Shown here: piece after piece, positions 39,053-64,000 of the stretch
Position numbering within the stretch: the first letter of the stretch is position 1
Layout of the letters: the number at the start of each line of letters is the position of its first letter
Source of the DNA: Acetobacteraceae bacterium
GTDB lineage: Bacteria; Pseudomonadota; Alphaproteobacteria; Acetobacterales; Acetobacteraceae
Direction: 5' to 3'
NCBI GenBank assembly: GCA_024280945.1
Contig: JAMXLO010000130.1
Location: 1-64,000 of the forward strand
DNA length: 64,000 nt
The notes under the pieces: model-generated
The model's input: the letters and a program-made list of their open reading frames with translations, nothing else
Told to the model about the DNA's origin: nothing
Database searches by the model: none
Translations under genes and position numbers: made by a program

Positions 39053-40006
39053 TCAGAGCCGCAGCAGTCGGATCGCATTGCCACTGGCGATCTTCGCCTT
39101 GTCCTCTGCACAAAGCGGAATGCCGGGCAGCCAGTCTGTGCCTGGCTTGTTGAGCACGAAGGGATAGTCGACCGAGAACATGATGCGGTCCACGCCAAGC
39201 TCCTGCACGCAGCACAACAGGGCGGGATTGGAGAAGAAGCCACTCGTCGTGATGTAGAAATGTTCACAGAACGCATCGCGGAATGATTGTCCGCCGCCGC
39301 GGGAAAACCCTGCGTCGATGCGCCATAGCAGGAATGGCAGCCCCTCGCCGAGGTGACCGAGGATGATCTTTAGTTTCGGGTAAGCGTCAAACACGCCCGA
39401 CAGCACCATGCGGACGCCTTGGGTCGCGGTTTCCACCGTGAAGCCCCAGGCAGCGCGCAGGATCATCGGCCAGTCCTGCACATAGTCCTGGTAATAGGTT
39501 TCGATCACCGCCGGATGCGGCATGGTAGGATGCAGATAGAGCGGCACATCCAACGCCGCGGCGCGTTCGCAGATCGGCCAGAATCGTTTGTCATCGAAGA
39601 ATATGCCGTTGGTGGTGCCGTTGATCAGCGCGCCTTTGAAATCGAGTTGTGTCACCGCGCGCTCCAACTCGTCGGCTGCTGCCTTGGGATCAGGCGTCGG
39701 GATCGCTGCGAATGCGGCAAAGCGATCGGGATGCGCCCGGACGGTTTGCGCCAGTCGGTCGTTGGCAATGCGCGCGAGACGGACGGCCGTATCGGCGTCC
39801 ATCTTCTGCAGGCCGGGATTGGCATGCGACAGCACCTGCATGTCGATGCCTGCTTCGTCCATTTCCCTGATGCGGAGATTGGTGAGATCGTTCAGACGCT
39901 CGGCAACCGCAGGAAGCTGACGCTGGTCCTCCGGCGCATAGGCGCGCAGGACATCGGGATCCTGGTAGTGCTCTTCCATGGTGATGACGCGTGGCCTTGC
40001 TGCCAT
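39053..40006 (-). CDS. Amidohydrolase-2 family protein (ACMSD/decarboxylase-like)
   Basis: 317-residue TIM-barrel metal hydrolase or decarboxylase of the amidohydrolase 2 family, close to gamma-resorcylate-decarboxylase types. Features: ITMEEHYQDPDVL at the first metal site, IDMQVLSHANPGLQ, LDVPLYLHPTMPHPAVIETY (barrel His), KIILGHLGEGLPFLLWRID and DRIMFSVDYPFV with the metal-site Asp. The usual HxH metal pair at the start is replaced by an E-H (EEH) form, as in that decarboxylase group. Start at MAARPRVITMEE. It is 14 bases downstream of the phytanoyl-CoA dioxygenase-like gene. Substrate unknown. Confidence 0.86.
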   Translation of the reverse strand: MAARPRVITMEEHYQDPDVLRAYAPEDQRQLPAVAERLNDLTNLRIREMDEAGIDMQVLSHANPGLQKMDADTAVRLARIANDRLAQTVRAHPDRFAAFAAIPTPDPKAAADELERAVTQLDFKGALINGTTNGIFFDDKRFWPICERAAALDVPLYLHPTMPHPAVIETYYQDYVQDWPMILRAAWGFTVETATQGVRMVLSGVFDAYPKLKIILGHLGEGLPFLLWRIDAGFSRGGGQSFRDAFCEHFYITTSGFFSNPALLCCVQELGVDRIMFSVDYPFVLNKPGTDWLPGIPLCAEDKAKIASGNAIRLLRL

Positions 40007-40020
40007 GGCGATGGTCCTTC

Positions 40021-40872
40021 TTAAGCCGGAGCGAAGCTCTCGGCGTGACGCTGCACCTGCTGCTTATAATTGGCGCGGTAACGCTCGCTCACCGACTGAT
40101 GGACGGCGAGCGCTGCCGCATCGCGCTCGGCTGCTGGCGGATCGATCAGCTCGAAATGGCCGTAGGTGTCAACGCCGCGCACCAGCATCGCCTTCAGTCG
40201 AACGGAGCCGTTCACCCGAACGTGCGCCGGAATATAATTGAGCCCGATGCCGACACGGCGGTGCGCCGCGCGGTTCGGTGCGGATCGGTGCACGGCCAGT
40301 TCATGGTGCAGCGAAAATGAGCCGGCGGGCAGCGCCATCGCCACCGGATCGCTGTCGTCGAATGGCTCCATGATGGTCTGGCCGGCGCGGTTGATGCTGT
40401 TTGCCAGGCCGAGTGCGGCGTGCTGGTACAGCCGAGGCATACCGCGGAACGACAGTTGTTCCATACAACCGGCCTCCGCCGTGGCATCGGTCAGCGCAAC
40501 CCAGGCGCAGACCTGCTCCCGAGGCTCCAGGCCAAAATATGCGCCATCCTGATGCCAGGCGGCAAAGGTCGGGGCCTTTGGCTCTTTGATGAAGAACGTG
40601 CTGGTCCAGACCAGGATATTCGGGCCGATCACGTCTTCCACCGCATCGAGGATGCGGGGGTGGCGAACCAGGTCATTGAACCAGGGAGAATGCGCATAGG
40701 CGTGCGAGCGCCATTTCACATCGGCTTCGGCGACCGGGCCGCCGAGGTCGGACTCGAGGCGAGCGAGACCGCCCAGGCAGGTTGCGACTTCGCTGGGGCT
40801 GAGTGCGGGGATCGGGAACAGGAAACCGTTGTGGCGATAGTAGTCCACCTGCTGCTGAGTGAGTGCTTTCAT
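40021..40872 (-). CDS. Phytanoyl-CoA dioxygenase family protein
   Basis: Fe(II)/2-oxoglutarate-type dioxygenase of 283 residues. The iron facial triad is visible as H and D in AAWHQDGAYFGLE and the distal His in SLHHELAVHRSAPNRAAHRR, whose Arg would bind 2-oxoglutarate. The N-terminus MKALTQQQVDYYRHNGFLFP is typical, and the 20 in-frame codons before it are not. Transcribed together with the downstream amidohydrolase-type gene, suggesting a shared catabolic route. Confidence 0.88.
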   Translation of the reverse strand: MKALTQQQVDYYRHNGFLFPIPALSPSEVATCLGGLARLESDLGGPVAEADVKWRSHAYAHSPWFNDLVRHPRILDAVEDVIGPNILVWTSTFFIKEPKAPTFAAWHQDGAYFGLEPREQVCAWVALTDATAEAGCMEQLSFRGMPRLYQHAALGLANSINRAGQTIMEPFDDSDPVAMALPAGSFSLHHELAVHRSAPNRAAHRRVGIGLNYIPAHVRVNGSVRLKAMLVRGVDTYGHFELIDPPAAERDAAALAVHQSVSERYRANYKQQVQRHAESFAPA

Positions 40873-41021
40873 GAATGCCTCCGTCGGGCGACACGCGCCA
40901 TTGCAAAAAGAATACCTGCATCGGCAGCGCACGCCAGTCGCGCCGTCGCTGGTGACAGGGCGGTTGGACGACGGTGCCTGCGCGCCGTATCGTCACGACG
41001 ACCGATACGGAACCACTTCGC

Positions 41022-42095
41022 ATGTCTCTCCTGGAACCCGGTGGCATCGACTGCGACATCCACCCCGCCGTCCCCAACATCCGAGCGCTGCACCCATATT
41101 TGTCGGACCACTGGCGCGACGTCGTCATACAGCGCGGCGTGCATGAGCTTGAGTCGATCGCCTACCCGACGAATTCACCACTGACATCGCGGCCCGACTG
41201 GCGCCTGCCGAACGGCAAGCCCGGCTCCGACCTCGACGCATTGCGCGCCCACGCGCTGACGCCGTTCGGCACGTCGGTTGCCATCTGCAACTGCCTCTAT
41301 GGAGTACAGCTCTTGTTCTCGGAGGACATGGGTGCCGGCTTCGCCCGTGCCGTGAACGATTGGATCGCCGCGGAGTGGCTGGACAAGGAGCCGCGTCTGC
41401 GTGCGTCGATCGTGGTACCGATGCAGAATGCCGAGCTCGCGGTAGAAGAGATCGACCGCGTCGCACCCGACAAACGTTTCGTGCAAATACTGCTCCTGGT
41501 TATGCACGACCACCCGTTAGGCAAGCGTCATTACTGGCCGATTTATGCCGCCGCAGAGAGACATGGGCTGCCGGTCGGCATCCATGCCGGCTCGGCCTAT
41601 CGCCATCCCGTCACGCCACTTGGCTGGCCGACCTACTACACCGAGGATTATGCGGCGCAAGCCACCGCCTTCCAGGCGGCGCTGTCCTCGCTCGTGTGTG
41701 AGGGGGTGTTCACCAAGTTCCCTGACCTGAAGATCGTGCTGCTGGAGTCCGGCTTCACCTGGCTGCCGGCGCACCTATGGCGGCTGACAAAATTCTGGCG
41801 CGGGCTGCGCATGGAGGTGCCGTGGGTCGACCGCGCGCCGACAGACATCGTTCGCGAGCACGTACGTCTGACCGTCACGCCGTGCGATGGGCCGCCATCA
41901 CCGGAAATGTTGCAAAAGCTGATGGAGCACATGGGCTCGGACGAGATGCTGCTGTTCTCGACCGACTACCCGCATTGGCAATTTGACGGCGACGCGGTGC
42001 TGCCGGACGGTTTGTCGCGTGACCTGGTCAGGAAGATCATGATCGACAACCCGCGAGCGACGTATACCCGCCTGGTGTCTGAAGTCGTCGCATGA
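41022..42095 (+). CDS. Amidohydrolase-2 family protein
   Basis: 357-residue metal-dependent TIM-barrel protein. The first metal site is the Asp-x-His of GGIDCDIHPAVPNI. The barrel histidine is in LPVGIHAGSAYRHPVTPLGW. FTKFPDLKIVLLESGFTWLP and LLFSTDYPHWQFDGDAVLP complete the site. It is a clear paralogue of the protein encoded at 42.8 kb. It diverges from the dioxygenase-like gene and its stop overlaps the start of a Uma2 gene (ATGA). Substrate not predictable. Confidence 0.87.
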   Translation: MSLLEPGGIDCDIHPAVPNIRALHPYLSDHWRDVVIQRGVHELESIAYPTNSPLTSRPDWRLPNGKPGSDLDALRAHALTPFGTSVAICNCLYGVQLLFSEDMGAGFARAVNDWIAAEWLDKEPRLRASIVVPMQNAELAVEEIDRVAPDKRFVQILLLVMHDHPLGKRHYWPIYAAAERHGLPVGIHAGSAYRHPVTPLGWPTYYTEDYAAQATAFQAALSSLVCEGVFTKFPDLKIVLLESGFTWLPAHLWRLTKFWRGLRMEVPWVDRAPTDIVREHVRLTVTPCDGPPSPEMLQKLMEHMGSDEMLLFSTDYPHWQFDGDAVLPDGLSRDLVRKIMIDNPRATYTRLVSEVVA

Positions 42096-42661
42096 GCGCC
42101 GCCAACCAGCTCCCTGCCGGAATGACAGCGGCCGAGTTTCTGGATTGGAACCCGCAGGACAGCGATCGGTGGGAGTTGGTCGACGGCACCCCGCAGGCGA
42201 TGGCGCCGGCGTCCCCTCGTCATGGGGCGATCCAGAACGAGACGGGACGGCTGATCGCCAACCACCTCGCTGAAGCGCGACCGGCGTGCCGGGTCATCAC
42301 CGAGCCGGGCGTCCAGCCCAGGGTCCGCGCTAACCTCAACGTGCGCGTGCCCGACCTTGCGGTCACCTGTGCCGAATGGGATCCGGACGAACGTCTGCTG
42401 CACCAGCCTCTGCTCGTCGTCGAGATCCTGTCACCGTCGAACCGGGCAGACACGTGGGCGAACGTCTGGAGCTACGTCACTATTCCAAGCGTGCTGGAGA
42501 TTCTGGTGCTGCATACTGCGGACCTCCGTGCCGATCTGCTGCGCCGCCAAGGCGATGGCACCTGGCCGGACAATCCAGTGTCACTCGTCGCGGGGGACAC
42601 AGTGACGCTGCCGAGCATTGGCTTCACTGCGCCGCTCACCGCCTTTTATCGCACAGCATAG
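42092..42661 (+). CDS. Uma2 family protein (second copy)
   Basis: 189 residues of the Uma2/DUF820 nuclease-like fold: MTAAEFLDWNPQDSDRWELV with the early Glu, VRVPDLAVTCAEWDPDERLL (the PD step) and HQPLLVVEILSPSNRADTWA. It differs considerably from the copy at 32.8 kb, so it is not a recent duplicate. The ATG overlaps the amidohydrolase stop. The stop codon lies inside an 18-base tandem repeat. Role unknown. Confidence 0.87.
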   Translation: MSAANQLPAGMTAAEFLDWNPQDSDRWELVDGTPQAMAPASPRHGAIQNETGRLIANHLAEARPACRVITEPGVQPRVRANLNVRVPDLAVTCAEWDPDERLLHQPLLVVEILSPSNRADTWANVWSYVTIPSVLEILVLHTADLRADLLRRQGDGTWPDNPVSLVAGDTVTLPSIGFTAPLTAFYRTA

Positions 42662-42693
42662 TCGCGCCGCCTAAGATAGTCGCGCCGCCTAAC
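42658..42693 (+). repeat. 18-bp tandem duplication across a stop codon
   Basis: Two copies of ATAGTCGCGCCGCCTAA(G/C) lie head to tail, differing only in the last base. The first copy contains the TAG that ends the second Uma2 gene. Confidence 0.85.
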
Positions 42694-42777
42694 GCGGGGA
42701 CTTGTCACCTCACCTCACCGGCACGATCATACCGCCACTCCGCGACAATTCGTTCGCGCCCTCCGGGAGACCGCCGC

Positions 42778-43884
42778 ATGAACGTCCAGGTCACCAGCCG
42801 CCCCATCGTGCAACCCGCCACCAGCTCGAAGCTGGCCATCGCCGATGGCGACATCCATCCGCAGCGCAACTCCTACAAGGACTTGTTTCCTTACATGGAA
42901 GCGCGCTGGGTCGAGATGGCGAAGACCTTCGGCTCGCGTCCGCGCCAGGCGTATCAGGCCGGTCCGGCCTATCCGAAGGGGCAGCCGAACGCGTCCCGTC
43001 GCGACGCCTGGCCGCCTGGCGGACGTCCCGGCAGCAGTCTGCCGTTGCTGCAGAAGCAGTTGCTGGACGAGAACAACATTACGCTGGGCATCCTGAACCC
43101 GACCGGCGACAACGGCGCCAGCTTCCAGAATCGCGAGTTCGGTGCCGGTGTCGCCAGCGCGATGAACCGCTGGGTGGAAGCCGAGTGGCTGATCGAGCCG
43201 CGCCTGAAGGGTTCAATTGTAGTCCCGTACGAAGACGCCGATGCCGCCGTGGCCGAAATCGAGCGCTGGGCTGGTGATCCGCGTTTCGTCCAGGTGCTGA
43301 TGGTGACCCGCACCGCCAATCCGCCTGGCCAGAAGCAATACTGGAAGATCTACGAAGCCGCGGCGGCGGCGAACCTGCCGATCGGCGTGCATGCCTTCGG
43401 CTTCGGCGGCTACCCGGTCACCGGCTCTGGTTGGCCGTCCTTTTATATCGAGGACATGGTCGGTCACGCCCAGTCGTCACAATCCTTCCTCACCAGCCTT
43501 GTGATCGAGGGCGTGTTCGAGCGCATTCCGAATTTCAAGCTGGTGCTGATCGAGTCAGGCTTTGCCTGGCTGCCGCCCCTGGCGTGGCGATTGGACAAGC
43601 TGTGGACCCGGCTGAAGCAGGAGACGCCGCATCTGAGGCGTGCGCCCTCAGAGTACATTCGCGAGAGCGTCTGGCTGACCACCCAGCCCATGGAAGAGCC
43701 TCAGCCGCGCGAACACGTGCTGGATGCGATCGACTGGATCGGCTGGGACCGGCTGATCTTCGCCACCGACTATCCACACTGGGACTATGATGATCCCACC
43801 CAGGTACTGCCGATGCCGCTCCCTGAACAGCAACGGCGTGACTTCTTCTTCAACAATGCGATGAAGCTGTATCGGCAGGTCTGA
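42778..43884 (+). CDS. Amidohydrolase-2 family protein (paralogue of the 41-kb gene)
   Basis: 368-residue metal-dependent TIM-barrel protein. Metal-site Asp-x-His in IADGDIHPQRNSYKDLFPYM, barrel His in NLPIGVHAFGFGGYPVTGSG, and RIPNFKLVLIESGFAWLPPL and LIFATDYPHWDYDDPT matching the 41-kb paralogue almost segment by segment. An extra Pro/Gly-rich loop (YPKGQPNASRRDAWPPGGRP) sits near residues 62-80. The start at 42778 matches the paralogue; a much longer in-frame reading crosses the Uma2 gene. Function unknown; a shared or branched substrate range with its paralogue is likely. Confidence 0.87.
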   Translation: MNVQVTSRPIVQPATSSKLAIADGDIHPQRNSYKDLFPYMEARWVEMAKTFGSRPRQAYQAGPAYPKGQPNASRRDAWPPGGRPGSSLPLLQKQLLDENNITLGILNPTGDNGASFQNREFGAGVASAMNRWVEAEWLIEPRLKGSIVVPYEDADAAVAEIERWAGDPRFVQVLMVTRTANPPGQKQYWKIYEAAAAANLPIGVHAFGFGGYPVTGSGWPSFYIEDMVGHAQSSQSFLTSLVIEGVFERIPNFKLVLIESGFAWLPPLAWRLDKLWTRLKQETPHLRRAPSEYIRESVWLTTQPMEEPQPREHVLDAIDWIGWDRLIFATDYPHWDYDDPTQVLPMPLPEQQRRDFFFNNAMKLYRQV

Positions 43885-52671: not shown

Positions 52672-52761
<90 letters not shown>

Positions 52762-54107: not shown

Positions 54108-54374
54108 ATGGATACAGGTGCGACCACCGAAATTGAAGTTGCTCAGCTTCTGATCAACACATTGCATCTCGACCAGTCGCCGGGGGAAATCCAACCGGAT
54201 GAGCCGCTGTTTGGCGATGGTCTGGGTCTTGATTCGATCGACGCCTTGGAAATCGCGCTTGCCATTTCCAAAGTCTATGGCTTCGCCCTGAAATCGGACG
54301 AAGGTCGGGCCCATCAGGTATTCGCGTCGCTGCGAAATTTGACACGCTATATCGACGCTCATCGGATCAGGTAG
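54108..54374 (+). CDS. Acyl carrier protein of the aryl polyene-type cluster
   Basis: 88-residue ACP. The 4'-phosphopantetheine site is Ser43 in GDGLGLDSIDALEIALAI, and the N-terminal helix ATTEIEVAQLLINTLHLDQS is as expected. It carries the growing polyene chain. First gene of the plus-strand cluster. E. coli-type aryl polyene clusters have two ACP genes; only one is found here. Confidence 0.93.
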   Translation: MDTGATTEIEVAQLLINTLHLDQSPGEIQPDEPLFGDGLGLDSIDALEIALAISKVYGFALKSDEGRAHQVFASLRNLTRYIDAHRIR

Positions 54375-54433
54375 GATGCTGAACCTTCGACAGAGCCTGG
54401 TGGACCGATCAGCGGTGGAAATCTCGATCGCCT

Positions 54434-55786
54434 GTGTCTGAATCCGATCCAACATGTCCTTTGATCGGCCGCGCGCCAGATGAGCCGATGTTCAGGCTCA
54501 GCGGAGGAACTATCAAGGCCGGCACATTCCTAGGTAATGCACAAGACGTCGCTGGTGCCTTGTCACCCGGTTCCTTTGTCCTGAACCTCTGCCGAGACAG
54601 GTTGCTGTTCGCGCTGGCGCTGGCTGCGGCGATGCTGCGTGGTCAGGTCACACTTCTAAGCAGTGACCGGTCGCCTGAATGGCTCGCAACTTTATCAGAA
54701 AGCTATCCCGGGCTCTACGCTGTCGCCGACTATCCGGCGCCGCCGGCGCAGCCGTTCTCCTGGCATCTGCTGGACAAGGGTTCGATCAGGCTGACAGGAC
54801 AGCGGGTTGCCATCCCTAACATCCCGGCAGCGCAATTGGCATGCATCGTGTTTACCAGCGGAACCACCGGGCAGCCGCTCGCGCATCGGAAGCCATGGGG
54901 CGGGCTGGTCGAGCGGAGCATCGACGCGGCCGTCTGGCTGGAACTGGCGAGCGACCGAACCACCAGCGTCGTTGGCATGGTTCCTCCACACCACATGTAT
55001 GGTTTGGAAACGACCGTGCTGCTTCCGCTGCATGCTCCCGCAGCTACATGGTGCGGCCCGGCCTTCTATCCCCAGGATGTCGTGGCTGCATTGCGATCGG
55101 TTCCTGCGCCGCGCGTTTTGGTCACCACGCCGTTGCAGATCCGTACGCTGCTCCATGCATCGATTGATCTGCCGCCGATCGACCGCATTGTTTCGGCAAC
55201 GGCCCCACTGTTCCCTGAGATGGCGCAAGCCGCGGAGGAACGCTGGAAGACGCGAGTCGTCGAGATCTTCGGAGCGACCGAGGTCGGTTCGATCGCCGGG
55301 CGCCGCACCACCGCTGATGATGTGTGGACAACCTATCCCCGCGTACGCCTGCAACAGGCAAACCCTGAAGGCGAAACGCTCGTGGTCGGTCCGCACGCTG
55401 CAGCTTACCCGCTTAGCGATATCGTAGAGCTGCTCGATGATCGGCAATTTCGCTTGGTTGGCCGCCGGCCGGACGTGGTGAAACTCGGCGGCCGGCGCGC
55501 TTCATTGGCTGAACTCAACCGCATCCTGGCGGGCTTGGACGGGGTCATCGATGGCCAGTTTGTGGCGCCAGACGATCTGGATCGCCAGCCGGCAGCCCGG
55601 CTGCTGGTTTTCGTCGTTGCGCCCGAGCGTAGTGCTGAAGACCTGTTGGCCGAATTGCGGCACCGCATCGATCCACTGTTTCTGCCGCGTCGCATTTTCA
55701 AGGTTGATACGTTGCCTCGGAATGACGTCGGCAAATTGACCCATCAGGCACTGAATACTTTGCGCGCACGGACCAGCGAAGCCTGA
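54434..55786 (+). CDS. AMP-forming acyl-ACP/acyl-CoA ligase (aryl starter ligase)
   Basis: 450-residue ANL-superfamily adenylating enzyme. The phosphate-binding loop is TSGTTGQP (141-148), but the usual following Lys is displaced (LAHRKPW). VVEIFGATEVGSIAGRRT is the A5-like motif, and LVGRRPDVVKLGGRRASLAE is the hinge region. The C-terminal catalytic lysine is K434 in PRNDVGKLTHQAL. It is shorter than typical ligases of 500 or more residues. By position and family it should load an aromatic acid such as 4-hydroxybenzoate onto the ACP, as ApeH does; the substrate is inferred. GTG start. Confidence 0.85.
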   Translation: MSESDPTCPLIGRAPDEPMFRLSGGTIKAGTFLGNAQDVAGALSPGSFVLNLCRDRLLFALALAAAMLRGQVTLLSSDRSPEWLATLSESYPGLYAVADYPAPPAQPFSWHLLDKGSIRLTGQRVAIPNIPAAQLACIVFTSGTTGQPLAHRKPWGGLVERSIDAAVWLELASDRTTSVVGMVPPHHMYGLETTVLLPLHAPAATWCGPAFYPQDVVAALRSVPAPRVLVTTPLQIRTLLHASIDLPPIDRIVSATAPLFPEMAQAAEERWKTRVVEIFGATEVGSIAGRRTTADDVWTTYPRVRLQQANPEGETLVVGPHAAAYPLSDIVELLDDRQFRLVGRRPDVVKLGGRRASLAELNRILAGLDGVIDGQFVAPDDLDRQPAARLLVFVVAPERSAEDLLAELRHRIDPLFLPRRIFKVDTLPRNDVGKLTHQALNTLRARTSEA

Positions 55787-55795
55787 ATTCGGGTC

Positions 55796-56095
55796 ATGGG
55801 ATCGGAACCACTATTCATGATCGAACCCGACCACCCGAGCCTTGCCGGGCATTTTCCGGGCAGGCCAGTGGTTCCGGGTGTTGTTGTTCTTGATCAAACC
55901 ATCGCCCTGATCCTGTGCGACCGGCCAAATCGGTCTGTCATCGCACTGCGCGAGGTGAAGTTCCTTTCACCGGTTCTTCCTGGTGATGTGGTCACCATCG
56001 AGATCGTCGTGACACCGGACCGTGTGACCTTTAGCGGCAAGGTTGGAAACCGCCCGGTCATTCGCGGCGAAGCTCAGCTTGACGTCGCCGCATGA
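55796..56095 (+). CDS. Short hotdog-fold dehydratase (ApeI-like)
   Basis: 99-residue FabZ/FabA-like hotdog protein. The catalytic His is H19 in DHPSLAGHFPGRPVVPGVVV, followed by ALREVKFLSPVLPGDVVTIE. It corresponds to the short partner (ApeI) of the two-subunit dehydratase in aryl polyene synthesis. The larger partner would be the protein at 61.9 kb. The ATG is ten bases after the ligase stop, and its stop overlaps the next gene (ATGA). Confidence 0.87.
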   Translation: MGSEPLFMIEPDHPSLAGHFPGRPVVPGVVVLDQTIALILCDRPNRSVIALREVKFLSPVLPGDVVTIEIVVTPDRVTFSGKVGNRPVIRGEAQLDVAA

Positions 56096-57123
56096 CGGCA
56101 GCGCGCTGGGCTGGTCGTCGCGAGCGAGGCAGCGAATCGCTCATACGATTGATGATATGGCTCTCGCTCACGCTCGGCTGGTCCGTCGGGCATGCTCTGC
56201 TGTACCCGATCACACTCTACTTCGTGCTGATGGTGCGCGGCGGTCGCCGGGCGTCTCGCGCATTTCTTCACCGCGTGTTAGGCCGCCCAGCGACGCATCT
56301 GGAGGTATTCCGGCATTTCTTCGGGTTCTCCTGCGTCCTGCTCGACCGGCTGTTCCTTCTGTCGAACCGACTGCGCTACTTCGATATCCAGGTGAACGGC
56401 CTCAACGACATCGAGGGGGCGTTGGCCCAATCGCGTGGCTGCATCTTGCTCGGCTCCCATCTCGGTAGTTTCGAAGTATTGCGTGTCGTCGCACAGCAAT
56501 CACCGGTGCCGGTGAAGATCTTGATGTATCGCGGCAACAGCCGCCCGTACAGCCGGCTGATCGAGGCGCTCGATCCCACGCTGGCGGAAAGCGTTATCGA
56601 GGTTGGCGAGCCCGAGGCGATGCTGCGGGTGCAGGAGTGCGCACAGCGCGGCGAGATCGTCAGCATCCTGGCCGACCGCGCACCGCAGCAAGACAGGACG
56701 GTCACTGTACCGTTCCTGGGAGATCCAGCGGCATTTCCGGCCGGTCCGCTGATCCTCGCCGCCGCCCTCGGCACGCCGGTAGTGCTGTTCTTTGGCATCC
56801 GCACCGGCAACCGACGCTATCAGGTGCACTTCGAATACTTTGCCGATCGGATTATCCTCGATCGCGCGCGCCGAGCCGAAGATCTTGCGAGCTGGGTTCG
56901 GCGCTACGCTGCAAGGCTGGAGATGTATGCTCGGCAAAATCCATTCAATTGGTTCAATTTCTACGACTTCTGGGAACATCGCACGGCTGCATTACAAGCG
57001 CCGCAGACTCGGTCTGCTGACGCTGCTGCTGACGCTGTCTCGTTCGGGGATGTCGGCGGCAGTTGCCGAGACGTCGCATCGCACGATCGGCGAGCTGATG
57101 CAGCTTCTGGCGCAGGTGGCTGA
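56092..57123 (+). CDS. LpxL/HtrB-like lipid acyltransferase
   Basis: 343-residue membrane-bound acyltransferase. An N-terminal hydrophobic segment (about 17-42) is followed by the catalytic HxxxxE motif in ILLGSHLGSFEVLRVVAQQS and the substrate loops LMYRGNSRPYSRLIEA, VSILADRAPQQDRTVTVPFL and AFPAGPLILAAALGTPVVLF. It probably attaches the polyene or fatty acyl chain to a lipid anchor. After NPFNWFNFYDFWEH the last 45 or so residues look like an out-of-frame reading of the next gene; see the findings. Confidence 0.85.
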   Translation: MTAARWAGRRERGSESLIRLMIWLSLTLGWSVGHALLYPITLYFVLMVRGGRRASRAFLHRVLGRPATHLEVFRHFFGFSCVLLDRLFLLSNRLRYFDIQVNGLNDIEGALAQSRGCILLGSHLGSFEVLRVVAQQSPVPVKILMYRGNSRPYSRLIEALDPTLAESVIEVGEPEAMLRVQECAQRGEIVSILADRAPQQDRTVTVPFLGDPAAFPAGPLILAAALGTPVVLFFGIRTGNRRYQVHFEYFADRIILDRARRAEDLASWVRRYAARLEMYARQNPFNWFNFYDFWEHRTAALQAPQTRSADAAADAVSFGDVGGSCRDVASHDRRADAASGAGG

Positions 57124-57583
57124 GAGCCGCTCCACCTTTACCGAAGTGAAGACGATCGCTGTCCTGACAGTGCCATTGCGCGCGAGCGGCGTGTTATATT
57201 ACCGGCGGCCGGACTACTTTGAAAAGACGACCACGCAGCCACAGCTGGAAAGACTGGTGGTTGATGGAGACCGGCTGACGATGTCGACAGGCGACGAGCC
57301 GGCTCGCGTCGTCGATCTGGACAGCCAACCGATGATTCGCGGCCTGGTGGATGCAATCCGTGGCACGTTGGCAGGCGAGCTTGCGGTGTTGCAGCGAGTC
57401 TATCGCGTGGAGATGGAGGGCGATCTGACAGGTTGGCGCCTCGCGCTGACACCAACGGATTCCGCAGTAGGGCGCGCAGTAAGCCGCATCGTCATCGAGG
57501 GCAGGCAGGATTCATTGCAGTTCATCCACACCATTCAGGCGAATGGCGACGAAAGCCGCATGACGATCAGCGGAGCCTCTTGA
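56927..57583 (+). CDS. LolA-like outer-membrane lipoprotein carrier-type protein
   Basis: Periplasmic LolA/LolB-fold protein, about 218 residues from the ATG at 56927. A signal-type segment (RLGLLTLLLTLSRSGMSAAV) precedes the fold: QVAESRSTFTEVKTIAVLTV, GVLYYRRPDYFEKTTTQPQ, LERLVVDGDRLTMSTGDEPA, and the C-terminal RIVIEGRQDSLQFIHTIQA. It probably carries the lipid-linked product across the periplasm. The start is uncertain because the leader is long. The start chosen overlaps the acyltransferase by 197 bases. The stop overlaps the MMPL start (TTGA). Confidence 0.75.
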   Translation: MLGKIHSIGSISTTSGNIARLHYKRRRLGLLTLLLTLSRSGMSAAVAETSHRTIGELMQLLAQVAESRSTFTEVKTIAVLTVPLRASGVLYYRRPDYFEKTTTQPQLERLVVDGDRLTMSTGDEPARVVDLDSQPMIRGLVDAIRGTLAGELAVLQRVYRVEMEGDLTGWRLALTPTDSAVGRAVSRIVIEGRQDSLQFIHTIQANGDESRMTISGAS

Positions 57584-59904
57584 GCGCGCGCAGCGGGCCG
57601 ATCCTGCTTGCGGTGGCGGTAACCGCGCTGATAGCGGGAGTGGTGCTCAGCCATGCGACCATCCGAAGCGATATGGCGGATTTCCTGCCGCAAGGCCGCA
57701 CCGCAGGTACAAGCCTGGTATCCAAGGAGTTGCTTTCGGGCGCGGCTACCAGCCTGATCATGCTTGGGATCGAAGGAGCGCGGCCTGGCGAGTTGGCTCG
57801 CATCAGCCAGTCGATGACCAGGGCGCTCGATCGTACGGGGCTGTTTTCCTTCATCAACAACGGCAGCCAGGATCTGTTGGCGAACGATGCGGAGCAGGTG
57901 CTGTTCAGGCACCGTTACCTGTTGTCGCCCACCACGACCGCGGAAGCTTTCGCCATTCCAGCCCTACGCGATGACATGGAGAGGCTGCTGCGCGGCCTGC
58001 AATCTTCCGCGGCGCCGCTGGTGGAGCAATTCGGCACGGCCGATCTGCCTGGGGCATTTCCAGCGCTACTGCATGACCTGATCGGCTCCAGCAGGGTGCA
58101 CACGCTGCATGGCGTCTGGTTTGCGGCTGATCGTCAACGCGCTCTCATCCTTGCCAGCACTCGCGCCGGTGGCATGGATGTCGAGGCGCAGGAGGCGGTG
58201 AGCACAGCCATCCAGCAGGCGTTCACCGCCGCAGAACCTGGGAATGCCAAGCTACTTGCCGCCGGTCCTGCGGTGTTCGCGCGGGCGGCGGCACAAGCCA
58301 TGCGCGCCGATGTCATGCTGCTGTCGATCGCTTCGACGGCACTGCTTGCCGCGTTGTTGTTGTGGCGCTTCCGCTCGGTCTGGATGCTGATTGTTGTTGC
58401 CATACCGGTGACACTCGGAATCGCCGCAGCGACGTTGGTTGTGCAACTCGTCTTCGGCTTCGTGCACGGAATTACGATCGGCTTTGGCATGACGATGCTG
58501 GGTGTGACGCTCGATTATCCAGTGCTGTTGGTCGGACATCGCAAGCATGGCGAAGCGGCAAAGGACACATTGCGGCGCATCGGACAGGCATTCAGGCTGA
58601 CGGCCCTGTCAACCGCGCTGGGACTGACCGGAATGCTGTTCTCTGGTTTCCCTGGGCTGTCGCAACTCGGCTGCTTTTCCGTTGTGGGCGTCGCAGTGGC
58701 CGCTGCAGCGACGCGCTGGCTGCTGCCTTATCTCATCGTCGCCGCCGGCGTGGCCCCGGTGTCGGCGGGTGATGCGGCTCGACTGCTGCGTATCGAGCAC
58801 CTGCGGGTGTGGCGCGGCTACGTTGCGGGAGCCTGCGTTCTGGCTGCTGGGTGGCTCACGATCGTGGGTGGGCCACGCTGGCAGAGCGAGCTGGCGGCGC
58901 TCAGTCCGGTACCGGCGTCCGACTTCGCGCTGGACGCCGAACTGCGCGGCGAGATCGGTGCGCCCGATGCGGTATTGCTGGGTGTTGTGCAGGGGGATAC
59001 GGCGGAAGCAGTGCTGCGCCAGGAAGAGCAACTGCTGCCTGGCCTCGATGCGCTGATCCGCGACCGCGTGCTGAGCGGGGCGGAAGTCGCCGCTAGGCTG
59101 TTGCCGAGTGCCGCGACCCAGTTGGCGCGCCGTGCCGCCTTGCCAGCTCCCGATGAACTCGCCGCGCGCATCGCGACGGCGCAGGCGGGACTGCCCTTCC
59201 GGCCCGGCGTCTTTCAGCCGTTCGTTGATGCCGTGGCCGCCAGTCACACGATGCCGCCATTACTCCCATCCGACATCGACAGCCCGATGCTTCGGGCACG
59301 CCTCGACTCGCTGCTGTTCACGCGCGATGGCCTTTGGTATGGCGTGATCGCGCCGACCGACCTGCGCGACCCGTCCCGCTTCGCGGCAACGCTGCAGCAG
59401 GATGGCGCAATGTACCTCGACATTGCGGGGGAGACGAACGCAATCGTTGCCGATTCCACGAGCAAGGCATGGCGCTGGCTTGTCGCGGGCGGATTGGCGG
59501 CGCTCGCGGCGGTAACCGTCGGCCTGCGTTCGCCCCAGCGTGTGGCGACGGTCGCTGCCGCCATCCTTGCCGCGCTGCTGCTCACCGTGGTGATCCTGAC
59601 GGCCGCGGGGGTACCCTTGTCGCTGATCCACATCATAGCGCTGCAATTCGTTTGCAGCGTCGGCCTCGACTACGCTCTGTTCTTTGCTCGGCGGCAATTG
59701 GACCAAGAGGAGCGGGCCCGTACGCTTCGTACGCTCGCAACATGCAACGCCATGACTGTACTCACGTTTGCTATGCTGGCACTGTGCCGGACGCCGCTGC
59801 TGCAACAGATCGGTATCACCGTCGTGATCGGTTCCCTGGCCGCATTCGTGCTTGCCTTCCTGTTTGCCGGTGAGCGCCCGAACGACCGGCCGGAACCAAC
59901 GTGA
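57580..59904 (+). CDS. MMPL/RND-family exporter
   Basis: 774-residue transporter of the MMPL/RND type with two six-helix halves, each preceded by a periplasmic domain. Helix-rich parts include LLSIASTALLAALLLW, AIPVTLGIAAATLVVQLVFG, ITIGFGMTMLGVTLDYPVLL and, in the second half, IHIIALQFVCSVGLDYALFF. The two LDYPVLL/LDYALFF segments carry the Asp of the proton path. TTG start overlapping the LolA-like stop. Exporters of this group are constant members of aryl polyene and xanthomonadin clusters. Confidence 0.9.
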   Translation: MSARSGPILLAVAVTALIAGVVLSHATIRSDMADFLPQGRTAGTSLVSKELLSGAATSLIMLGIEGARPGELARISQSMTRALDRTGLFSFINNGSQDLLANDAEQVLFRHRYLLSPTTTAEAFAIPALRDDMERLLRGLQSSAAPLVEQFGTADLPGAFPALLHDLIGSSRVHTLHGVWFAADRQRALILASTRAGGMDVEAQEAVSTAIQQAFTAAEPGNAKLLAAGPAVFARAAAQAMRADVMLLSIASTALLAALLLWRFRSVWMLIVVAIPVTLGIAAATLVVQLVFGFVHGITIGFGMTMLGVTLDYPVLLVGHRKHGEAAKDTLRRIGQAFRLTALSTALGLTGMLFSGFPGLSQLGCFSVVGVAVAAAATRWLLPYLIVAAGVAPVSAGDAARLLRIEHLRVWRGYVAGACVLAAGWLTIVGGPRWQSELAALSPVPASDFALDAELRGEIGAPDAVLLGVVQGDTAEAVLRQEEQLLPGLDALIRDRVLSGAEVAARLLPSAATQLARRAALPAPDELAARIATAQAGLPFRPGVFQPFVDAVAASHTMPPLLPSDIDSPMLRARLDSLLFTRDGLWYGVIAPTDLRDPSRFAATLQQDGAMYLDIAGETNAIVADSTSKAWRWLVAGGLAALAAVTVGLRSPQRVATVAAAILAALLLTVVILTAAGVPLSLIHIIALQFVCSVGLDYALFFARRQLDQEERARTLRTLATCNAMTVLTFAMLALCRTPLLQQIGITVVIGSLAAFVLAFLFAGERPNDRPEPT

Positions 59905-61080
59905 ATGGACCGGCCGGTCTTGACTGCCACAACGATCATCAGCGCCATCGGCCGCGGCTCCGCGATGACATTGGAGGCGCTGAGGTCACGCCGCCACGGC
60001 TTGCGTCCTTGCGATTTTGCCAATGTCACGGATGGATACATCGGCCGGGTAGCAGCAGCGGATGCGCACGCACTGCCGCCGGCGCTGGCACACTTCGACT
60101 GTCGCAACAATCGCCTGGCTGACCTGGCTATTAGGACTGATGATTTCGCACGTGCCGTCATGGCGGCGCGTGACCGTTACGGCCCCGGTCGTATCGCGGT
60201 CATACTCGGCACCAGCACGTCGGGTGTGCGCGCAACGGAAGAGGCGTATCGGGCGCGCGATCCTGACACCGGTATGCTTCCCGCGGCGTTCGACTATACG
60301 CACACGCACGATATGTTCTCTCTGGCGCATTTCGTCCGCAGTGCGCTGGAGCTCCGCGGGCCGGCAATGGTCATCTCGACTGCCTGCGCATCCAGCGCGC
60401 AGACGTTCATCGATGCCCACCATCTGATGGAGAGCGGGGAATGTGACGCAGCGGTGGTGGGAGGTGCCGACAGCCTGTGCGGCATGACCTTGCGCGGCTT
60501 CGCTTCGCTGGAGTTGATCTCGCCTGTCCCGTGCCGGCCATGCGACACTGACCGGGCCGGAATCTCAATTGGCGAGGCTGCTGGCTTCGCGCTGCTGGAG
60601 CAGACGGGCGACGGTATTGCGTTGCTCGGTTGGGGCACGAGCTGCGACGGCTATCACATGTCTGCACCACATCCACAGGCTGCCGGTGCGATAACCGCGA
60701 TGCGGGGGGCGCTCACCTCCGGTGGATTGGAGGCCGCTGACATCGACTACGTCAATTTGCATGGCACCGGTACCCGCGCGAACGATGCCATGGAGGACCA
60801 GGCCGTCGCGACAGTGCTCGGCAACGCGACCGCGTGCAGCTCTACGAAGGGCTGGACCGGCCACACGCTTGGCGCGTCCGGCATCCTGGAAGTTGTGATC
60901 GGCGCACTGTGTATCCGGCATGGATTACTGCCTGGCTGTCTCAATGTGACCACGCTCGATCCCAGTTTTCGCTCGCGGGTCATCTTGCATAACGAAGAGC
61001 GCCCGGTGCGCACCGTAATGAGCAACGCCTTCGGCTTCGGTGGTATCAACTGCAGCCTGATCCTCGGCGCCGCCCGATGA
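59905..61080 (+). CDS. Beta-ketoacyl synthase (KS, ApeO-like)
   Basis: 391-residue condensing enzyme of the FabF type. The Cys-His-His triad is complete: C161 in MVISTACASSAQTFID, H286 in YVNLHGTGTRAND and H320 in GWTGHTLGASGILEVV, with K315 close by. SIGEAAGFALL and MSNAFGFGGINCSLILG are other signatures. It follows the MMPL gene without a gap and overlaps the chain-length-factor-like gene. Together the two should form the KS-CLF pair for chain extension. Confidence 0.93.
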   Translation: MDRPVLTATTIISAIGRGSAMTLEALRSRRHGLRPCDFANVTDGYIGRVAAADAHALPPALAHFDCRNNRLADLAIRTDDFARAVMAARDRYGPGRIAVILGTSTSGVRATEEAYRARDPDTGMLPAAFDYTHTHDMFSLAHFVRSALELRGPAMVISTACASSAQTFIDAHHLMESGECDAAVVGGADSLCGMTLRGFASLELISPVPCRPCDTDRAGISIGEAAGFALLEQTGDGIALLGWGTSCDGYHMSAPHPQAAGAITAMRGALTSGGLEAADIDYVNLHGTGTRANDAMEDQAVATVLGNATACSSTKGWTGHTLGASGILEVVIGALCIRHGLLPGCLNVTTLDPSFRSRVILHNEERPVRTVMSNAFGFGGINCSLILGAAR

Positions 61081-61895
61081 TCGAGGGATTCATTCACGCC
61101 GTCTCGGTCTGTGGTCCGGGACTCGATGATTGGCCGCGCAGCCGCCCAATTCTTGCCGGGTCGCAGGAGTACGTATGGCGTGAAGCGATTCCCAACATGC
61201 CCAGTATCCTGCCTGCCAACGAGCGGCGCCGCGTTGGCGCGGCGGTTCGGCTGGCGCTGACGATCGCTCAGCAGGCGCATGAGATGGCTGGTCTGGCGCC
61301 TGGCAGCATCAGCAGCGTATTCGCAACGTCGAACGGCGACGGCGCGGTCATGCACGCAATGTTGCAGAGCTTGGCCGCAGACGAGGCTGTCTCGCCCACC
61401 CAGTTCCACAATTCGGTGCACAATGCGGCGGCCGGTTACTGGTCCATCGCGACCGGTTCGCAGCAGCCAGCCAGTTGCCTCGCCGGCCATGACGCGACGC
61501 CGGCGGCAGCACTGCTGAAGGTATTGGCCACCGTTCGGGTGACGCAGCAACCGCAGCTGCTTTGCATCTACGAAGCCTCTATGCCACCGCCGCTCGACGC
61601 CAAGCGTCCGACGCGTGGTCTCTTTGGCGCAGGTCTCGTCATCGCACCACAGGTGGGCGAAACCACCCTGGCCAGGCTTTCCGTCGCTTACCAGCCAGGG
61701 GTTGCGGTGGAAGGCGACATGCCGAGCCTGACGGCGCTGCACGCGCTGGCTCGCGGCAATTCCGCGGCGCAGCTGCTGCCTCTCTTGGAGGCAGTCGCTC
61801 GGAACGTCCCCGCCACATTCAGCCTGGCCTTGTTGGAAGGCAGCTTGCGGGTCAGGGTGCAGCCATGGTCACTCGCCAGCGAATCCTCGAGCTGA
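61077..61895 (+). CDS. Beta-ketoacyl synthase chain-length-factor-like protein (ApeC-like)
   Basis: 272-residue protein of the short KS-like family (Ketoacyl-synt_2, N-terminal thiolase half only). The characteristic HNSVHNAAAGYWSIATGSQQ and SSVFATSNGDGAVMHAMLQS are visible, whereas the C-terminal thiolase half with its two His motifs is missing. It cannot condense alone and should set chain length in a heterodimer with the 59.9-kb KS. ATGA overlap with that gene; its end overlaps the next gene by 31 bases. Confidence 0.88.
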   Translation: MIEGFIHAVSVCGPGLDDWPRSRPILAGSQEYVWREAIPNMPSILPANERRRVGAAVRLALTIAQQAHEMAGLAPGSISSVFATSNGDGAVMHAMLQSLAADEAVSPTQFHNSVHNAAAGYWSIATGSQQPASCLAGHDATPAAALLKVLATVRVTQQPQLLCIYEASMPPPLDAKRPTRGLFGAGLVIAPQVGETTLARLSVAYQPGVAVEGDMPSLTALHALARGNSAAQLLPLLEAVARNVPATFSLALLEGSLRVRVQPWSLASESSS

Positions 61896-62308
61896 TCCCG
61901 CATCAGGGCGCGATGTGCCTGTTGGAGTCGGCGCTGTCGTGGTCGGCGACCGAAATAACCTGCGTGACGCGGTCGCACCTGTCGCCGGACAACCCGTTGC
62001 GACGCGGTGGCCGACTGCATTCTGTCTGTGGCATCGAATACGGCCTGCAGGCGGCTGCACTGCACGGCGGGCTGTTGGATGGCGCGAGGCAGCCAGCCGG
62101 TTACCTGGCCGCGCTGCGCGATGTCAGCATCCGCGTCGAGCGGCTGGACGCCCCGTCGCTTGGCACGCTGCATGTGACGGCGACACAGGAGATCTGCACC
62201 CCGCATGGTCTTATCTATCGGTTTGCCCTCGCAGCCGAGGCTGGCACCGACTTGTTGAGCGGGCGCGCGGTGCTGGCCAGGCGTTCGGCAGCAACGGACG
62301 CCGCGTGA
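61865..62308 (+). CDS. Hotdog-fold dehydratase (ApeP-like)
   Basis: 147-residue hotdog protein of the larger FabZ-like type. The conserved pattern starts RILELIPHQGAMCLLESALS with the PHQG-type His, followed by HSVCGIEYGLQAAALHGGLL and YLAALRDVSIRVERLDAPSL. It resembles ApeP, the second subunit of the two-part 3-hydroxyacyl-ACP dehydratase of aryl polyene synthesis. Its stop overlaps the GTG of the ketoreductase gene. Confidence 0.83.
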   Translation: MVTRQRILELIPHQGAMCLLESALSWSATEITCVTRSHLSPDNPLRRGGRLHSVCGIEYGLQAAALHGGLLDGARQPAGYLAALRDVSIRVERLDAPSLGTLHVTATQEICTPHGLIYRFALAAEAGTDLLSGRAVLARRSAATDAA

Positions 62309-63024
62309 AACGCGCGCTGGTCACCGGAGGCGCCGGCACGTTGGGGGCGGCGATCTGCCGACGCCTGGCGCACGATGGCCTGCACGTGATCGTGCACGCC
62401 CATACCCGAGTTGACGCCGCCGAGGACGTGGCCACGGCCATTCGTGCCGGCGGCGGTTCAGCCGAGACGTTGAGCTGCGATCTCACGGATGTCGATGCGA
62501 CCGCGACGGCGTTGCAGCCGGTTCTGGCCGATGGCGTGCCACAGGTGCTGGTACACAGCGCCGGCACGCATGACGATGTGCCGATGGCCGGTATGTCGGA
62601 GCACCAGTGGCGCCAGGTGATCGACGTATCGTTGAACGGATTTTACGCGGTCAGCCGGCCTCTGCTGCTGCCGATGATGGCGACGCGTTGGGGGCGTATC
62701 ATCGCAATCTCCTCGGTATCCGCTGTCATGGGCAATCGGGGACAGGTGAACTACGCCGCTGCCAAGGCAGGCCTGATTGGCGCGGTGCGCGCACTGGCGC
62801 TGGAACTCGCCAGCCGAGGCGTGACAGTGAACGCCATTGCTCCGGGAATCATCGATTCGCCATGGGTTGCTGCAGCGTTGGACCACCGGCGCATTGCCGA
62901 GATCGTGCCCATGAAGCGTGCCGGCAGACCCGATGAGGTTGCTGACCTGGTCGGTTTCATTGCGTCGGACCAGGCGGCCTACATTACGGGCCAGACGATC
63001 ATGATCAATGGCGGGATGGCGTAG
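62305..63024 (+). CDS. 3-oxoacyl-ACP reductase (ApeQ/FabG-like)
   Basis: 239-residue short-chain dehydrogenase. Cofactor loop RALVTGGAGTLGAAICRRLA, catalytic Ser137 (IIAISSVSA), Tyr150 and Lys154 (VNYAAAKAGL), and a conserved C-terminus ITGQTIMINGGMA. It reduces the 3-keto group after each extension. GTG start overlapping the dehydratase stop. Last plus-strand gene before a minus-strand glycosyltransferase. Confidence 0.94.
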   Translation: MKRALVTGGAGTLGAAICRRLAHDGLHVIVHAHTRVDAAEDVATAIRAGGGSAETLSCDLTDVDATATALQPVLADGVPQVLVHSAGTHDDVPMAGMSEHQWRQVIDVSLNGFYAVSRPLLLPMMATRWGRIIAISSVSAVMGNRGQVNYAAAKAGLIGAVRALALELASRGVTVNAIAPGIIDSPWVAAALDHRRIAEIVPMKRAGRPDEVADLVGFIASDQAAYITGQTIMINGGMA

Positions 63025-63042
63025 CTGCGAAAGCAGAGGCAG

Positions 63043-63798
63043 TCATCGACAGTGGCGCAGAGGCTGCAAGGTCAGCGATCGCCACAGGCCGATCGGATAC
63101 ATGCCCGCACGGAGAAGTTTACGCGCGACCATCAGCACGATTCGTGTGATATCCGCCACCGGCTGGAAGTGGCTTGCGCGCTGGACAGCTGGGCCATAGA
63201 CCGTCGGAATGTCCACGGCAACCGTGAAGAAGCCAAGCCGAGCAGCCTCGATGAGGATTTCGCTCTCGAAGGCGAAGCCGGGTGCCTTCGGCGGACGCGT
63301 TTCGAGCTGCTGCACCAGGTTTGCCGGATAAATCCGGAATCCGGACTGACTGTCATCGATTGGATGGCCCGCCGCCCAGGATATCCAGAAGTCGGCGACG
63401 CGGTTGGCGACGAAGCGTGCGCGGGGAGCATCGTAACCGGTCGCTCGGCGAGAGCCAATGATGATGTGACCCGGCCACTGGCGGCTACATTCCAGCAGAC
63501 GTGGCAGGTCTTCCGGCCGGTGCTGGCAGTCGCCATCCAATGTGACGATGTGCGACGCGCCAGCCTGCACCGCGGCCAGCATGCCCCGCATCAGGCTGGC
63601 ACCCTTGCCCACATTATGCGGATGGCGCAGCACCGTGGCACCATTCTCCGCCGCTATCCTGGCGGTGTCGTCGCACGAGCCGTCGTCGACGACGACAACG
63701 CTCGACACCTCAGGAAGCATCCGGCACCGGCTGACGATGACGCCGATCGTGGCCGCCTCCTGGTATGCCGGAATCACTACGTGGACACTGGCCGCCAT
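63043..63798 (-). CDS. Family 2 glycosyltransferase
   Basis: 251-residue GT2/DPM1-like enzyme. The nucleotide-sugar site is VHVVIPAYQEAATIGVIVSR and SSVVVVDDGSCDDTARIAA, with the metal-binding aspartates in IVTLDGDCQHRPEDLPRLLE and the acceptor-side region DSQSGFRIYP. No C-terminal membrane domain is apparent. The start MAASVHVV was chosen over one 21 codons upstream. It converges on the ketoreductase gene. Aryl polyene clusters usually include such an enzyme to glycosylate the anchor. Confidence 0.87.
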   Translation of the reverse strand: MAASVHVVIPAYQEAATIGVIVSRCRMLPEVSSVVVVDDGSCDDTARIAAENGATVLRHPHNVGKGASLMRGMLAAVQAGASHIVTLDGDCQHRPEDLPRLLECSRQWPGHIIIGSRRATGYDAPRARFVANRVADFWISWAAGHPIDDSQSGFRIYPANLVQQLETRPPKAPGFAFESEILIEAARLGFFTVAVDIPTVYGPAVQRASHFQPVADITRIVLMVARKLLRAGMYPIGLWRSLTLQPLRHCR

Positions 63799-63887
63799 GC
63801 GCGCCACCGCTCTGTTGCCTCCCCTCTTTTGGTCATGGCATGACCCGCGTATCGTTCTCAAGATCGTTCAGCGCGGAGCAGAACTGG

Positions 63888-64000
63888 ATGAGCAGCGTGG
63901 CACGACAAGTCGGTGAGCGCTGCGACGTTCTGGTGATCGGTGGCGGCCCAGCGGGTTCGACCGCGGCGGCCCTGCTCGCGCAGCACGGCAGGCATGTGGT
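63888..64000 (+). CDS. FAD-dependent oxidoreductase (5' end only)
   Basis: The 37 visible residues contain the dinucleotide fold CDVLVIGGGPAGSTAAALL, typical of halogenase/geranylgeranyl-reductase-like flavoproteins; such proteins occur in xanthomonadin and aryl polyene clusters. The ATG has a GGAG ribosome site nine bases upstream. An in-frame ATG at 63840 is also possible. The gene continues beyond the right edge. Confidence 0.8.
   Translation, partial: MSSVARQVGERCDVLVIGGGPAGSTAAALLAQHGRHV

Follow-up and report, generated by a model that had tools for sequence, protein, structure and literature searches.

A predicted aryl polyene lipid pathway of the xanthomonadin/arcuflavin type in an Acetobacteraceae genome

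Near the end of the 64,000-base stretch of DNA analysed here (the window), which represents bases 1-64000 of one contig of an Acetobacteraceae genome (6.42 Mb, 156 contigs, 99% complete), a tight run of genes was originally predicted to specify a type II polyketide route to an aryl polyene pigment. This raises the questions of whether the gene content fits such a product and from where its aromatic starter could be drawn. As judged from gene content and homology, the locus very probably encodes a fatty-acid-like type II polyketide pathway that would make an aryl polyene lipid of the xanthomonadin/arcuflavin type, a known kind of yellow membrane pigment.

Layout of the gene run and its continuation along the contig

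Open reading frames were listed and scanned against Pfam and NCBIfam in the window and in the rest of the contig, which reaches position 78410. Features of the cluster are as follows, with contig coordinates.

54108..54374, +, acyl carrier protein (ACP; PF00550 3.5e-8; NF006617 110.9 bits, cut-off 70)
54434..55786, +, putative AMP-forming acyl/aryl-ACP ligase in the ApeH/ArcT position (PF00501 1.3e-15)
55796..56095, +, ApeI-like hotdog dehydratase (PF22818 ApeI-like 35.5 bits, cut-off 28.5)
56092..57123, +, LpxL/HtrB-type acyltransferase (PF03279 1.4e-11)
56927..57583, +, LolA-like periplasmic lipid carrier, start inferred (PF19574 5.5e-23)
57580..59904, +, MMPL/RND-type inner-membrane exporter (PF03176 7e-17)
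59905..61080, +, ApeO-type ketosynthase (KS; NF006618 503.6 bits, cut-off 407; 6qsp_A 8e-71)
61077..61895, +, ApeC-type chain length factor (CLF; PF13723 1.4e-24)
61862..62308, +, ApeP-like hotdog dehydratase partner, start near 61862 proposed (profile match 6qsr_B 1.7e-7)
62305..63024, +, FabG-type ketoreductase (NF004200 333.6 bits, cut-off 273)
63043..63801, -, GT2 glycosyltransferase (PF00535 8.9e-20)
63888..65192 (63888..64000 in the window), +, flavin halogenase-like oxidoreductase (PF04820 1.5e-26)
65186-65974, -, DUF218 protein
65995-66654, +, methyltransferase
66632-67279, -, MlaC-like protein
67290-67730, +, DUF3060 protein
67820-68578, -, UbiE-type methyltransferase
68575-69450, -, polysaccharide deacetylase

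All twelve genes named in the original prediction are present, and the first ten, from the ACP to the ketoreductase (54108-63024, +), form a tight run in the order given. As read directly from the sequence, short gaps separate the ACP from the ligase (59 nt) and the ligase from the ApeI-like dehydratase (9 nt). The remaining junctions overlap or abut: ATGA between the ApeI-like dehydratase and the acyltransferase, an overlap of about 197 nt between the latter and LolA, TTGA between LolA and the exporter (whose TTG start at 57580 overlaps the LolA stop), TGA directly followed by ATG between exporter and KS, ATGA between KS and CLF, an overlap of about 34 nt between CLF and the ApeP-like gene, and GTGA before the ketoreductase. 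Since most junctions overlap or abut, these ten genes are likely carried on one message; a promoter and terminator scan gave the same counts as shuffled sequences and was uninformative. The tight overlaps proposed earlier as evidence for a single message thus hold for some junctions, including ATGA, TTGA, and GTGA, but not for the two gapped ones, and the message can span the ten plus-strand genes but not the GT2 gene, which lies on the minus strand and would be transcribed separately. At 56927-57123, the LolA start falls inside the acyltransferase frame and overlaps the C-terminal tail of that protein; a frameshift at this junction was considered and rejected, as four relatives also have extended acyltransferase tails.

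The cluster was expected to run off the window's edge, and reading the contig to its end confirmed this: the FAD gene continues to 65192, and further cluster-type genes follow to about 69450. The GT2 gene is convergent with the ketoreductase gene, an orientation also found at loci L034/L058 (57% identity), L042, and L059, and the flavoenzyme gene is located behind it. In relatives, the core genes are again accompanied by homologues of the flavoenzyme, the GT2, the two methyltransferases, and the deacetylase, and DUF218 and MlaC are each linked in one family relative. Further upstream in the window, positions 39053-43884 contain a group of three amidohydrolase-like genes with a phytanoyl-CoA dioxygenase-like gene, as judged from the translations by eye alone.

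Predicted functions and likeness to described clusters

The residues and structural matches of the core proteins agree with their proposed roles. The phosphopantetheine serine of the ACP (Ser43 in GLGLDSID) is kept across 17 homologues, and the KS retains a catalytic Cys161-His286-His320 triad that is conserved in 21. Its nearest solved structure is 6qsp_A (8e-71), which we take to belong to the Xenorhabdus ApeO:ApeC complex. The CLF shows no conserved active-site Cys in the alignment, and its only matches among solved structures are 7f28_A and 6qsp_B. In the ApeI-like dehydratase, H19 in the motif GHFPG is conserved. Searched as a single sequence, the ApeP-like protein gave no hit in Pfam, whereas a profile built from 10 homologues matches 6qsr_B at 1.7e-7, presumably part of an ApeI:ApeP complex. 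The ketoreductase residues S137, Y150, and K154 and the acyltransferase H123 (motif HLGSFE) are likewise conserved. Judged by its closest solved match (halogenase 8zop_A, 1e-54) and motifs, the flavoenzyme is halogenase-like: WxWxIP is conserved in its homologues, and Lys78, which aligns with the lysines of solved halogenases, is conserved in 11 of them, so that a reading as an enzyme lacking the halogenase lysine was rejected.

The ligase is less closely placed. Its top NCBIfam model is TIGR02372 (4-coumarate-CoA ligase) with a score far under the cut-off, and it stays below every specific family cut-off, with no equivalog model exceeded; FTSGTTG and K434 are conserved in its homologues. Best hits of the ligase, KS, and CLF in fatty acid or siderophore clusters had been named as grounds for abandoning the prediction. 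The structural matches of KS and CLF are not of this kind, and homologues of both stand beside ligase, ACP, LolA, and MMPL genes in the same order in dozens of records. The ligase is syntenic throughout.

In the pathway that these genes suggest, the ligase would load an aromatic acid onto the ACP and the KS-CLF pair would extend it with malonyl units. Ketoreductase and ApeI/ApeP-like pair would reduce and dehydrate each unit, and without enoyl reduction (no enoyl reductase was found in the gene run) a conjugated polyene would result. The acyltransferase and GT2 could then join the polyene to an anchor, either a lipid or a sugar, decoration would fall to the flavoenzyme and methyltransferases, and the MMPL and LolA-like proteins may move the product toward the outer membrane. 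The locus contains the features of aryl polyene and xanthomonadin clusters: an ApeO-type KS with Cys-His-His beside an ApeC-type CLF, ApeI- and ApeP-type dehydratases, a dedicated ACP, AMP-ligase, and ketoreductase, and a LolA-like carrier with an MMPL exporter and an acyltransferase.

Among described systems, the gene content matches that of the arcuflavin cluster of Azoarcus sp. BH72 (arcA-X), which comprises a halogenase-like protein, glycosyltransferase, acyltransferase, ketoreductase, dehydratases, KS-domain protein, methyltransferase, polysaccharide deacetylase, exporter, LolA, AMP-ligase, and ACP (PMC3949708). The two gene sets are the same apart from XanB2. The arcuflavin genes, XanB2 (arcB) among them, are split into separate blocks and show linkage to dialkylresorcinol genes, whereas the Acetobacteraceae genome lacks XanB2. 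The xanthomonadin cluster has a single ACP, as here, but contains XanB2 to supply 3-hydroxybenzoate. Compared to the aryl polyene (APE) clusters of E. coli CFT073 and Xenorhabdus doucetiae, the pathway of which has been reconstituted in vitro (PMC8253772), counterparts of ApeH, I, L, M, O, P, Q, and C are found, and the KS is about 43% identical to the APE cluster KS. However, the E. coli type has two ACPs, a CLF at its start, a fused glycosyltransferase/acyltransferase, a thioesterase, and a third KS (ApeR), while the present cluster has one ACP, one KS with a CLF, and separate GT2 and acyltransferase genes; two ACPs, ApeR, and the fused protein were not found in it. Given the single ACP, the separate GT2 and LpxL-type acyltransferase, the halogenase-like flavoenzyme, the methyltransferase, and the polysaccharide deacetylase, the predicted arrangement is the xanthomonadin/arcuflavin one and not that of the E. 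coli APE cluster.

Distribution and ketosynthase phylogeny

A CLF match was obtained in 21 of the 60 relatives searched, mostly at E < 1e-40. Thirteen other records have the complete ten-gene order, far beyond chance, and most of 80 named loci share long parts of it. The 13 include plasmids of Roseomonas haemaphysalidis and Azospirillum ramasamyi, the latter with two extra genes between exporter and KS; a Variovorax plasmid match was discarded as a cluster, being a lone KS. A search of 84,980 species genomes turned up at least 590 stretches that code for relatives; the best ones come from Acetobacteraceae, with Burkholderia, Cupriavidus, Azoarcus, and others next. The KS tree places the window in a clade of 22 rows (SH-aLRT 92) and, more narrowly, in a set of 17 rows with a support of 99; all rows of the 22-row clade with a named family are Acetobacteraceae or Roseomonadaceae, and two are labelled only Proteobacteria. 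Very long branches lead to E. coli ApeO and the outgroup, leaving the deep root unsure. The scan and the tree both bear out the alphaproteobacterial host predicted from the DNA and place it in the Acetobacteraceae.

Aryl polyene clusters were reported in 2021 from 19 of 43 (44%) acidophilic Acetobacteraceae strains, in a predictive survey that called the products undescribed (PMC8776678). These clusters from the same bacterial family have KS-linked adenylation, halogenase-like, and transport genes, as here, making the locus one further member of a very common cluster family. For related pigments, the reported role is protection against light or oxidants (PMC3949708, PMC8776678). Loci L050 and L051 (genomes G016 and G015, same family) have an E. 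coli-like order of CLF, ACP, ligase, ApeI-like, GT2, acyltransferase, MMPL, and KS genes at 25-49% identity, which suggests two separate aryl polyene cluster types within this family. Elsewhere in the host genome (C8:10616-12568), two ketosynthase-type genes lie side by side.

Competing readings and the source of the aromatic starter

The aryl polyene reading draws on the family matches, the 6qsp, 7f28, and 6qsr matches of KS, CLF, and ApeP-like protein, the conserved catalytic residues, the gene order, the KS tree, the arcuflavin gene list, and the APE pathway. Against it stand the ligase scores below specific cut-offs and the failure to find a hydroxybenzoate-starter enzyme (UbiC, XanB2, or an Rv2949c-type lyase) in the genome. 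The missing starter source and the kinship of the enzymes with fatty acid synthases would also suit an operon for an unusual fatty acid or lipid built on an aliphatic starter. We consider this improbable, as the solved structures closest to KS and CLF are those of aryl polyene enzymes, the run holds no enoyl reductase, and the gene set is that of arcuflavin minus XanB2. A flexirubin-type route from tyrosine through tyrosine ammonia-lyase is hardly credible: LolA and FabG do score against flexirubin models (for LolA2, NF053544, 9e-12), but both below the cut-offs, and the sole aromatic ammonia-lyase of the genome exceeds the histidine ammonia-lyase cut-off while reaching 305 against the 700 bits needed for flexirubin TAL (FlxA). 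A tyrosine or phenylalanine ammonia-lyase starter was rejected, this only lyase being HutH-type. At C141:133609-137982, its gene is flanked on one side by that of a thiamine-diphosphate enzyme and on the other by that of a distant APH(6)-like kinase, with no evident hut operon.

A separate alternative concerns the origin of the cluster, which could be a recent genomic island at the tRNA-Ser gene (52672-52761) about 1.3 kb upstream, an idea that the lack of a CLF match in one other genome of the genus (only 73% complete) would favour. This is very unlikely, since the tRNA 3' end (14-20 nt) is not repeated elsewhere on the contig, the GC content of the core (0.634) equals that of the contig (0.637) with no shift, and in the tree the KS lies among orthologues from its own family; the island was rejected on the first two grounds. 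In that single incomplete genus-mate, no flank was conserved by which an empty site could be recognised.

XanB2, the chorismatase that marks the xanthomonadin/arcuflavin subtype, was not matched in the host genome with either PF21168 or a XanB2 protein, both of which find matches elsewhere; UbiC is missing from the host and from 59 of the 60 relatives. XanB2 occurs in the cluster loci of many members of the beta/gammaproteobacterial sister branch, with two Acidocella among the carriers, and in one Rhodospirillales genome. In genome G089, its gene adjoins a flavoenzyme gene like that of the window, and in G147, a ligase and an ApeI-like gene. Relatives in the window's branch gave either no XanB2 match or a weak one (G035 at 31% identity; G003 at E 8e-4, with stops). 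Because UbiC and XanB2 are absent here and not convincing in the searched same-branch relatives, the Acetobacteraceae-type branch may possibly draw its starter from an unrecognised enzyme or use another acid, e.g. 4-aminobenzoate, although we regard this as a tentative proposal and rather unlikely. The same gap in the source of 4-hydroxybenzoate was acknowledged for Hyphomicrobium, where 4-aminobenzoate was raised as an alternative ubiquinone substrate (PMC12423496). If the proposal is true, the missing step would become apparent from the pigment head group, and the same step may also contribute to ubiquinone in these alphaproteobacteria. 4-Hydroxybenzoate supply in an alphaproteobacterium with neither UbiC nor XanB2 is acknowledged as unexplained (PMC12423496), and a visible pigment made from such an acid would offer an easy test. 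The modest value of the locus lies in this distribution: XanB2 is present in many loci of the sister branch and in Acidocella, whereas the Acetobacteraceae-type branch has neither XanB2 nor UbiC. A XanB2-like protein is encoded in a 1.9 Mb genome of the same family (G033, C12:19641-20318), and as this genome has no CLF match, the protein may serve ubiquinone rather than pigment synthesis.
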